Source: Mycolicibacterium diernhoferi (GTDB taxonomy: Bacteria; Actinomycetota; Actinomycetes; Mycobacteriales; Mycobacteriaceae). From it: a stretch of 64,000 nt of DNA. The notes under the pieces are model-generated. The model ran no database searches and was not told the DNA's origin. It saw nothing but the letters and a program-made list of their open reading frames with translations. This document shows, piece by piece, positions 32,056 through 36,199 of this stretch. Each line of letters opens with the position of its first letter. The first letter of the stretch is position 1. The stretch covers positions 2,232,001 through 2,296,000 of the forward strand of contig NZ_CP080332.1 of assembly GCF_019456655.1 (NCBI RefSeq), read 5' to 3'. The translations under genes were made by a program, and so were the position numbers.

Positions 32056-32436
32056 TTATTCGTAGGGGTTCGGAACTCGTCCGCCGCTGGCCGCGGTGAG
32101 CAGCGGCAACGTCGCGAAGGTCACTGCGGGCAGCGTGATCTCGCTGCCGTCGGTGAGCCGGGCCCGGGCCCACGAGGACCGGGTGAAGCGCAGGCCCTCG
32201 ATGCGCGTCCACGGCACGGTCCGGCTGCCCAGCAGGGTGCGCGCGGTCACCTCGTCGCGGCCGGCCACCGTGCGGTAGCGGGCGATGGTCACCGAGGCAA
32301 GCACCGGAAACACCATCAGGATCCAGCTCCAGGACGGCAGCGCGTAGATCAGCGCGAAGATTCCGAGAGTCAGGAAACCGACCGCGATGTGGGCCATGGG
32401 GGAGATGCGAATTACGAGCGGGGAGGGCTGACTCAC
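32056..32436 (-). CDS. PH-domain membrane protein (CFP6/Rv3004-like)
   Basis: A 126-residue protein. Two N-terminal helices (MAHIAVGFLTLGIFALIYALP, WILMVFPVLASVTIARY) form a hairpin in the membrane, followed by a bacterial PH-like domain (GRDEVTARTLLGSRTVPWTRIEGLRFTRSSWARARLTDGSEI). M. tuberculosis Rv3004 (cfp6) encodes a low-molecular-weight antigen of this layout. Its role is unknown. It converges on the DoxX gene with only 13 bases between stops, and its start faces the ilvB promoter region. Confidence 0.82.
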   Translation of the reverse strand: MSQPSPLVIRISPMAHIAVGFLTLGIFALIYALPSWSWILMVFPVLASVTIARYRTVAGRDEVTARTLLGSRTVPWTRIEGLRFTRSSWARARLTDGSEITLPAVTFATLPLLTAASGGRVPNPYE

Positions 32437-32487
32437 CGGGACATCTTCGCATCGCCACCCGTGAGCGGTTCCGGGTGCGGGCGCAAT

Positions 32488-32517
32488 TTGACCTTTGAGC
32501 AGTGCGGAGGCTACCGT
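32488..32517 (+). promoter_or_regulatory. Promoter of the ilvB leader
   Basis: TTGACC (32488-32493), an 18-base spacer and TACCGT (32512-32517). It is the clearest housekeeping-type promoter in the window. Transcription would begin about 32524-32526, that is at the ATG of the leader peptide, so the peptide would be translated from a leaderless transcript. Confidence 0.65.
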
Positions 32518-32525
32518 CAGGGTCT

Positions 32526-32597
32526 ATGTACACCCCGGACAAGCTCGTAGTACTTGGTTGGCGCGTTGATGCCGCGCTAGCTCTCTGCCGGGCTTAG
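32526..32597 (+). CDS. Putative ilvB leader peptide, 23 aa
   Basis: An ORF too short for usual calling: [18 protein letters not shown] plus five residues, stopping at TAG 32595. Seven of 23 residues are Leu or Val, including the consecutive LVVL and late L18 and L20, and several use codons rare in this GC-rich genome (GTA GTA CTT, CTA). It starts eight bases after the TACCGT hexamer and its coding region forms the 5' arm of the leader helix. This is what a branched-chain amino acid attenuator peptide should look like. Isoleucine codons are absent. Confidence 0.7.
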
Positions 32598-32627
32598 CCA
32601 ACAGCATCGACGCGCCAACCCTCGTAC
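32550..32627 (+). promoter_or_regulatory. ilvB leader long-range helix (candidate antiterminator)
   Basis: Bases 32556-32572 pair with 32604-32620 over 17 consecutive pairs (one G-U). The helix can be extended across a small internal loop by GTAC 32550-32553 with GTAC 32624-32627. The 5' arm lies inside the leader peptide codons and the 3' arm reaches into the terminator stem (from 32619), so the extended helix and the terminator compete. Confidence 0.6.
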
Positions 32628-32654
32628 AGCGGACTCCGCTGACGGGGGTTTTTT
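32619..32654 (+). terminator. ilvB leader intrinsic terminator (attenuator)
   Basis: Bases 32619-32625 and 32627-32632 pair with 32636-32648, a 13-bp stem with one bulged A and an ACT loop; six T follow (32649-32654). It stands 52 bases before the ilvB start and downstream of the promoter and leader peptide, so it must be conditional if ilvB is transcribed from 32524. Confidence 0.75.
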
Positions 32655-32706
32655 GCTGTCACAGAACGTCACAACATCACCTGAACCAACCCGATACGAG
32701 GAAAAA

Positions 32707-34557
32707 GTGAGCGCACCCACCACGCGACCGCCGGAACCCACCCAGCGCGCGAACGGCGTCCAGGCCTCCGCCAAGACGGAACCAAAGGCCAATGTTGTTG
32801 CACCGGAACAGATGACGGGCGCGCAGTCGGTGGTGCGGTCGCTCGAGGAGATCGGTGTCGAGGTGATCTTCGGGATCCCCGGTGGCGCCGTGCTGCCGGT
32901 CTACGACCCGCTGTACGACTCGAAGAAGCTGCGCCACGTGCTGGTGCGCCACGAGCAGGGTGCCGGCCACGCCGCCAGCGGCTACGCCCACGCCACCGGC
33001 AAGGTCGGTGTGATGATGGCGACCTCCGGTCCGGGTGCGACCAACCTGATCACCCCGCTGGCTGATGCCCAGATGGACTCCATCCCGGTCGTGGCCATCA
33101 CCGGCCAGGTGGGACGGGCCCTGATCGGCACCGACGCCTTCCAGGAAGCCGACATCACCGGCATGACCATGCCGGTCACCAAGCACAACTTCCTCGTCCG
33201 CAGCGGCGAGGACATCCCGCGGGTCATCGCCGAGGCCTTCCACATCGCCCAGAGCGGACGGCCTGGCGCTGTCCTCGTCGATATCCCGAAGGACATCCTG
33301 CAGGGGCAGTGCACCTTCTCCTGGCCCCCGGTGATGGATCTGCCCGGCTACAAGCCGAACACCAAGCCGCACAGCCGGCAGGTGCGTGAGGCGACCAAGC
33401 TGATCGCCGAGGCCCGCAAACCGGTGCTGTACGTGGGTGGTGGCGTCATCCGCGGCAACGCCAGCGCCGAACTGATGGAACTGGCCGAGCTGACCGGCAT
33501 CCCGGTCGTCACCACGCTGATGGCGCGCGGTGCGTTCCCCGACAGCCACCCGCAGCACATGGGCATGCCCGGCATGCACGGCTCGGTGTCCGCAGTCGCC
33601 GCGCTGCAGAAGAGTGACCTGCTGATCGCCCTGGGCACCCGCTTCGACGACCGCGTCACCGGCCAGCTGGAGTCCTTCGCCCCGGACGCCAAGGTGATCC
33701 ACGCCGACATCGACCCCGCCGAGATCGGCAAGAACCGGCACGCCGACGTGCCGATCGTCGGTGATGTGCGCAACGTCCTGGCCGACCTGCTGGAGGTGCT
33801 GCGCCGTGCGGGCACCACCCGCGACTCGCTGCAGCTGGGCCCCTGGTGGGACTACCTGAACAGCATCAAGGCGACCTACCCGCTGAGCTACGGGCCGCAG
33901 AGCGACGGCAGCCTGAGCCCCGAGTTCGTCATCGAGAAGCTGGGCCAGATCGCCGGACCGGAAGCGGTGTACGTCGCCGGCGTCGGACAGCACCAGATGT
34001 GGGCCGCGCAGTTCGTGAAGTACGAGAACCCCAAGACCTGGCTGAACTCCGGCGGTCTGGGCACCATGGGCTACGCCGTCCCCGCGGCGATGGGCGCCAA
34101 GTTCGCCCGGCCCGAGGCCGAGGTGTGGGCGATCGACGGTGACGGCTGCTTCCAGATGACCAATCAGGAACTGGCCACCTGCGCGCTGGAGGGTGCGCCG
34201 ATCAAGGTCGCCCTGATCAACAACGGCAACCTGGGCATGGTGCGGCAGTGGCAGACGCTGTTCTACGAGCAGCGCTACAGCCAGACCAACCTGTCCACGC
34301 ACAGCCACCGGATCCCGGATTTCGTGAAGCTGGCCGAGGCGCTGGGCTGTGTCGGATTGCGTTGTGAGCGTGCCGAAGATGTCGAGGACGTGATCAACCA
34401 GGCCCGGGCCATCAACGACAAGCCGGTGGTCATCGACTTCGTCGTCGGCGCCGACGCCCAGGTGTGGCCGATGGTCGCCGCCGGTACCAGCAACGACGAG
34501 ATCCAGGCCGCCCGCGGCATCCGTCCGCTGTTCGACACCGAAGAAGGGCACGCCTGA
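32707..34557 (+). CDS. ilvB: Acetolactate synthase large subunit
   Basis: A 616-residue AHAS catalytic subunit, matching Rv3003c (ilvB1). After a disordered N-terminus come [13 protein letters not shown] and the catalytic E83 in [15 protein letters not shown]; the FAD-domain middle; and the ThDP site [17 protein letters not shown] ending in [13 protein letters not shown]. It condenses pyruvate with pyruvate or 2-ketobutyrate, the first step of Val/Leu/Ile synthesis. The start GTG 32707 has GAGGA four bases upstream; an in-frame TTG at 32653 is inside the terminator. It is separated from ilvN by a 77-bp MIRU-like spacer. Confidence 0.96.
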
Positions 34558-34637
34558 TGAGCGCGCGAAGACGAGCACGAGTGAGGATCGCAGTGAGGAA
34601 CGAACGAGGACCGCAGCGAATGGGAGTCGAGTCATGA
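34557..34637 (+). repeat. MIRU-like spacer carrying a 26-aa ORF between ilvB and ilvN
   Basis: The purine-rich spacer is itself an ORF (ATG 34557 to TGA 34637, encoding 26 residues, [18 protein letters not shown] and on, very Arg-rich). Its ATG overlaps the ilvB stop (TGATGA) and its TGA overlaps the ilvN start (CATGAG). Both features are the defining layout of mycobacterial interspersed repetitive units, and the opening ATGAGCGCGCGA resembles the MIRU consensus as I remember it. Only one copy is present. It may keep ilvB and ilvN translation coupled. Confidence 0.6.
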
Positions 34638-35143
34638 GTAGCGTCTCCACGCACACCCTGTCGGTGCTCGTCGAGGACAAGCCCGGCGTGCTGGCGCGCG
34701 TCGCGTCGCTGTTCTCCCGGCGCGGCTTCAACATCCAGAGCCTCGCCGTCGGGGCCACCGAGCAGAAGCACCTGTCCCGGATGACGATCGTCGTCGAGGT
34801 CGAGGACTTCCCGCTGGAACAGGTCACCAAGCAGCTCAACAAGCTGGTCAACGTGATCAAGATCGTCGAGCAGGACGAGAGCCAGTCGGTCTCGCGTGAG
34901 CTCGCGCTGATCAAGGTGCGCACCGATGCGACCACCCGCAGCCAGGTGATTGAAGCGGTCAACCTGTTCCGTGCCAAGGTTGTGGATGTGTCCACCGAGT
35001 CGCTGACCATCGAGGCGACAGGGACCCAGGAGAAGCTCGAGGCATTCCTGCGAGTGCTCGAGCCGTACGGTATCCGGGAGATCGTGCAGTCCGGCATCGT
35101 CTCGTTGTCGCGCGGGCCGCGCGGTATCGGCACCGCAAAATAG
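34634..35143 (+). CDS. ilvN: Acetolactate synthase small (regulatory) subunit
   Basis: A 169-residue IlvN. The N-terminal ACT domain is typical: HTLSVLVEDKPGVLARVASLFSRRGFNIQSLAVG, where PGVLAR/RRGFN mark the valine-binding interface; a C-terminal ACT-like half follows (SRELALIKVRTDATTRSQVIEAVNLFRAKVVDVS). It raises AHAS activity and gives valine feedback inhibition. It lies between ilvB and ilvC in the operon; its start overlaps the stop of the 26-aa spacer ORF. Confidence 0.96.
   Translation: MSSVSTHTLSVLVEDKPGVLARVASLFSRRGFNIQSLAVGATEQKHLSRMTIVVEVEDFPLEQVTKQLNKLVNVIKIVEQDESQSVSRELALIKVRTDATTRSQVIEAVNLFRAKVVDVSTESLTIEATGTQEKLEAFLRVLEPYGIREIVQSGIVSLSRGPRGIGTAK

Positions 35144-36199
<1,056 letters not shown>

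Follow-up and report, generated by a model that had tools for sequence, protein, structure and literature searches.

Mycolicibacterium diernhoferi carries, very probably, a mycobacterial form of the known ilvBNC attenuator with a leader peptide in one of two stop-codon zones

The window analysed here is a stretch of 64,000 nucleotides from Mycolicibacterium diernhoferi, whose 6.0-Mb genome is assembled as a single contig; all coordinates given below are positions in this window. Three genes of branched-chain amino acid synthesis, identified by their Pfam domains, follow each other on the plus strand. These are ilvB (32707..34557, with a GTG start), encoding the large subunit of acetohydroxyacid synthase, ilvN (34634..35143), encoding its small subunit, and ilvC (35186..36199), encoding ketol-acid reductoisomerase. 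The closest named IlvB among the loci fetched, a set in which very near records may be missing, belongs to Mycolicibacterium sp. J2 (92% identity). On the minus strand, a divergent open reading frame (ORF) of 126 amino acids (32056-32436) has its start some 50 nt away from the -35 box of the ilvB leader.

The leader begins with a promoter-like site on the plus strand (32488..32517), in which a -35-like TTGACC (32488-32493) and a -10-like TACCGT (32512-32517) are separated by 18 nt, as originally predicted. A general sigma-70 scan gave no hits, and the leader promoter is accordingly absent from its list; TTGAC and TANNNT elements at like spacing recur in relatives (64 of 65 in a second set of leaders). 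A leader-peptide ORF of 23 codons (32526..32597, plus strand) follows, running from an ATG at 32526, 8 nt 3' of the -10-like box, to a TAG at 32595-32597, and includes seven Leu or Val residues. An in-frame GTG at 32502 would lengthen it to 31 amino acids, but this codon sits within the promoter spacer and would therefore not be transcribed from that promoter. The 8-nt spacing suggests that transcription starts at the ATG or within about two bases of it, and that the ORF is probably leaderless. Leader peptide formation in C. glutamicum is said, in the title of a paper from 2000, to proceed without a ribosome binding site. A leaderless start had been put forward as a notable variant, which it is not: in C. 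glutamicum, a single nucleotide separates the +1 of the ilvB leader from its start codon (PMC11857589), transcription in C. diphtheriae starts at the start of the ilvB leader (PMC5784534), and the ilvB leader peptide of S. lividans is reported as leaderless (PMC8079986).

Within the ORF, the codons CTC GTA GTA CTT (32544..32555, plus strand) are the candidate control codons, based on their conservation, their rarity and the testing of their equivalents in M. tuberculosis (PMC13236596). In ilvB, ilvN, ilvC and gatB of the window, GTA accounts for none of 157 Val codons, CTA for none of 132 Leu codons, CTT for one of 132 Leu codons and ATT for one of 90 Ile codons; the GTA GTA CTT cluster is thus rare, at least against these four genes, as is the CTA also named in the original prediction. 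Helix P1, the candidate antiterminator, has its 5' arm within the ORF (32556..32572) and its 3' arm in untranslated sequence (32604..32620, both plus strand), and consists of 17 pairs, one of them G-U. An ungapped helix of 17 bp was reached by none of 500 dinucleotide shuffles. The terminator stem-loop (32619..32648, plus strand) comprises a 5' arm at 32619-32632, a loop at 32633-32635 and a 3' arm at 32636-32648, with 13 pairs and a one-base bulge at 32626 as read from the sequence; the predicted fold agrees and adds one base on each side (A with the first T). Six T residues (32649..32654, plus strand) follow directly 3' of the stem, and bases 32619-32620 are common to P1 and the terminator. 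Every one of these elements was found at the position given in the original prediction. Folding of the leader gave a z-score of -4.73, and none of 200 shuffles folded equally well. A short upstream ORF (uORF) containing consecutive Leu/Val/Ile codons is thus present just 5' of ilvB, with an intrinsic terminator between the two.

Attenuation by a leader peptide before ilvBNC is supported by these features, and is already known in the genus and its relatives. Mycobacterium ilvB leader peptides with terminators were predicted as candidates in 2005 (PMC1262725), and the ilvB uORF appears among the small ORFs listed for M. abscessus and M. tuberculosis (PMC4974804, PMC11133741). Attenuation of M. 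tuberculosis ilvB1 was shown in 2026: short transcripts end in the leader, ribosomes occupy the uORF, a change of LVVI to AAAA abolishes induction, and the uORF, rich in branched-chain amino acids (BCAA), is described as conserved among mycobacterial species (PMC13236596). This ilvB1NC leader resembles that of the window in operon, genus, BCAA-rich uORF, LVVI control codons and helix/terminator layout. It differs in its UGA stop, whereas the window encodes LVVL and has its TAG 14 codons after GTA GTA, in the long class described below (PMC13236596). The role of the control codons, predicted for the window, is shown by mutation in M. tuberculosis, another species of the genus (PMC13236596).

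More distant systems are also similar. The ilvBNC/ilvB-II leaders of Corynebacterium share with the window a Leu-Val-Val peptide and an antiterminator, a candidate one in the window, that has a few bases in common with the terminator; the C. glutamicum leader is longer, in a region of 292 bp, and a third hairpin, an antiantiterminator, is proposed for it, whereas no such pairing was found in the long class to which the window belongs (PMC11857589, PMC10272879). In S. lividans, ilvL (MRTRILVLGKRVG) precedes ilvBHC and is leaderless, as is probable for the window; hairpins and a U-rich segment come after it, but it has 13 residues with one Val (PMC8079986). The mycobacterial leaderless polycysteine attenuators, known here from a cited title, likewise sense an amino acid through a leaderless uORF in this genus; they differ in sensing cysteine and are called translation attenuation in PMC13236596.

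Conservation was assessed in 198 genomes, a sample of the genus, in which leaders were found by DNA similarity to the window leader. Such retrieval favours conservation; even so, 194 of the 198 genomes matched. One genome without a DNA match (G106), whose ilvB is 81% identical, carries a like leader, which brings the count to 195, and in the remaining three assemblies no ilvB orthologue was found, the best IlvB-like hit being 29-37% identical. Together with seven named loci, 202 leaders were collected, with at least one duplicate among them (L034 and L174, same peptide). Alignment placed 137 of these without requiring GTA GTA, which is partly built into the 65 further leaders because their finder demanded GTAGT[ACG]; one of the 137, in which no T run was found, was left out of the helix and terminator counts (n = 136). 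The ilvB1 attenuator published for M. tuberculosis is a member of a leader type found throughout the sampled genus. In one single-contig assembly (G172), two equal-scoring leader copies were seen (C1:4817456-4817622 and C1:7330-7496), the latter near the contig start, where the contig ends possibly overlap.

Both the peptide and the stems are kept in relatives. An ATG or GTG stands 8 nt after the -10 box in 132 of the 137 aligned leaders (7 nt in four, 6 nt in one), the start codon being ATG in 134 and GTG in three. GTA GTA (32547-32552 in the window) is present in all 137 and in 201 of the 202 overall; the preceding residue is Leu in 195/202, and the following one is Ile in 142/202 and Leu in 35/202. 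Six T are present in 132/137, the terminator hairpin in 136/136, and the 12-bp helix core GCGCGTTGRTGC / GCAYCRACGCGC keeps at least 10 pairs in 136/136 and all 12 in 90 (9-12 pairs over the full 202). The 3' arm of P1 is untranslated, so the peptide does not account for its complementarity. Covarying pairs, named as a check in the original prediction, appeared in part. With kinship ignored, 94.2% of the cells in 36 distinct arm pairs are paired, compared with 92.5% after shuffling the 3' arms among sequences (reached in 2/1000), and 14 cells changed on both sides against a shuffle mean of 6.8 (0/1000), but two of the four measures fell within the shuffles (440/1000 and 126/1000 reach). Eleven leaders (L216, L218, L222, L239, L246, L250, L251, L268, L270, L271 and L277) have a divergent uORF, MDNGMLVVA[HP]CALVVA; their helix is preserved, but the ORF reads through it in a different frame.

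The window leader very likely represents, in its mycobacterial form, the ribosome-mediated transcription attenuator already known for ilvBNC. The spacing suggests that the ribosome loads on the 5' end of the RNA, as is reported for related genera. Under shortage of valine, leucine or isoleucine, it would halt at CTC GTA GTA CTT, leaving the remainder of the uORF to pair with the strand immediately 5' of the terminator as P1. In line with published models, P1 would thereby capture the opening bases of the terminator stem and let RNA polymerase read into ilvBNC. When these amino acids are plentiful, the ribosome would move to the stop codon and hinder P1, the terminator would form, and transcription would end near 32654. 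The proposal that a ribosome at the TAG covers the 3' arm is only partly true here: with an ordinary footprint, the median number of core pairs left free by the terminating ribosome is 0 in leaders with an early stop (short class), but 8 of 12 in those with a late stop (long class), to which the window belongs. P1 may act through the first terminator-stem bases in the manner of the boundary trinucleotide described for C. glutamicum (PMC11857589). The effect of the stalled ribosome on the terminator is called underexplored in the M. tuberculosis paper (PMC13236596), and the comparative set sharpens this question, since the conserved helix and terminator overlap by only two bases in the window.

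The two states were modelled by equilibrium folding of the leader with the ribosome masked at each codon. The standard footprint masked 12 nt beyond the first base of the A site (one of the 202 leaders dropped, and a leader with its stop 10 codons after GTA GTA counted in the long class); a shorter edge of 8-10 nt was applied to 178 leaders after duplicates were merged. With the standard footprint, no stall position prevents the terminator, which forms with P of 0.87-0.99 in the window and means of 0.92-0.98 in the long class and 0.97-0.98 in the short class; such folding does not show helix and terminator to exclude each other, which counts against the model. With the 8-10 nt edge, stalling at Leu or at the first Val brings the terminator of the window down to P of 0.42-0.68, and P falls below 0.7 in 28-29% of 87 long-class leaders versus 2% of 91 short-class leaders. 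Sequestration of the 5' arm of the terminator by a stall at Val was rejected: before the 3' arm is made, the median cost of freeing the 5' arm is 0.49 kcal when the A site holds the first Val and 3.53 when the ribosome is at the stop, lowest at the stall and so the opposite of the simple expectation, which argues against a plain two-state fold. In the window, the base of the terminator is weakest without a ribosome (0.31), which contrasts with C. glutamicum, where loss of the start codon cuts expression by 80% (PMC11857589), and is also counted against the model. A hairpin within the P1 loop of the long class (codons ALA...RA-stop) was also rejected, with a mean of 12.5 compared with 12.0 for synonymous-codon controls and none of 54 at p<=0.05.

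The original prediction was right to see a Leu/Val attenuator of ilvBNC, but had placed the stall at the late Leu codons (32577-32585), with P1 extended by GTAC:GTAC to block the terminator. These codons and both GTAC copies (32550-32553 and 32624-32627) do exist in the window, CTA is rare there, and the extended fold without a ribosome is the one that lowers the terminator to 0.31. Across the genus, however, the uORF stops 6-8 codons after GTA GTA, upstream of the late Leu positions, in 106 of 202 leaders; the 11 short leaders with the divergent uORF carry another Leu near their end. The stop comes after 12-15 codons in 95 and after 10 codons in one. Where the late codons are present they vary: the first residue is Leu in all 95, written as CTG (33), CTA (25), CTT (25) or CTC (12), whereas at the second position 47 have Leu, 37 have Pro and 11 have another residue. 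The GTAC extension occurs in three of 136 leaders, the window among them. This version, a late-Leu stall with a GTAC-extended P1, is for these reasons highly improbable; the late Leu codons were rejected as sensors and the extension as a general feature. Judged from the aligned leaders, the conserved control codons are the early Leu-Val-Val-Ile/Leu (32544-32555 in the window), with which the M. tuberculosis codon mutation agrees (PMC13236596).

It is also very unlikely that the terminator is constitutive and the ORF merely yields a small expressed peptide, translation stalling without control of read-through. The masked folding, which gives no clear two-state switch, would fit such an arrangement, as would S. 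coelicolor ilvB, in which exchange of the putative control codons is cited as having had no effect (PMC1262725). That exchange, together with a single Val-codon change that had no effect in the C. ulcerans leader placed in B. subtilis (PMC10272879), speaks against the generality of codon control. Rare GTA GTA codons that are near-invariant would not be expected from a constitutive terminator, and neither would the outcome of the M. tuberculosis mutation (PMC13236596). A structured, conserved leader before an amino acid operon could in principle bind a ligand or a tRNA, as riboswitches and T-boxes do, without a translated ORF as sensor. This is given next to no probability: conservation tracks the codons of an ORF, no Rfam 15 family reached its gathering score in the window apart from two tRNAs, and only chance-level matches occurred in 32400-32800 for a leader that is genus-wide. 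Moreover, ppGpp is reported not to be bound by the ilvB-II motif of Corynebacterium, which is described as a uORF attenuator and whose leader was unresponsive to ppGpp (PMC10272879).

Within the ribosome-mediated attenuator, a minor new point from the leader set is that stop codons across the genus fall into two zones. In the short form, the stop is at the end of the 5' arm of P1, and a terminating ribosome leaves 0-2 core pairs free. In the long form (95/202, window included), the stop is in the loop of P1, and extra pairing of the control codons is absent. Short-form control codons can, by complementarity, often pair beside the 3' arm of P1, in the manner of the antiantiterminator suggested for C. 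glutamicum. The mean best score for such pairing was 14.3 in 83 distinct short-class pieces against 11.4 in shuffles (30% at p<=0.05), and 9.8 against 9.0 in 62 long-class pieces (none at p<=0.05), kinship being ignored in both. In several short-class leaders (L129, L170, L176, L179 and others), the control codons TGCTCGTAG are complementary to CTACGAGCA or CGAGCA, a stretch just 5' of the 3' arm of P1, so that this pairing would compete with P1. Since both stop position and extra pairing differ by form, the same switch would be set in two ways. That the mycobacterial ilvB attenuator comprises two architectures, short and long, placing the terminating ribosome differently, is put forward tentatively, as possible but somewhat less than probable. 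The two zones and the short-form pairing were the least expected results, and no mention of either was found in the consulted portions of the ilvB-leader papers cited here. The two zones offer a natural comparison for how a stalled ribosome stops the terminator.

Beyond the genus, 23 non-mycobacterial loci, hand-picked from 80 named ones, carry a leader ORF that includes consecutive Ile/Leu/Val residues. A TANNNT box precedes an in-frame ATG or GTG by 6-7 nt in 14 of the 23; in the other nine, no TANNNT box was found at that distance. The predicted folds of Nocardia, Hoyosella, Lentzea and Saccharothrix include a GCGCG helix beside the terminator, while the best predicted fold in Rhodococcus is another one.
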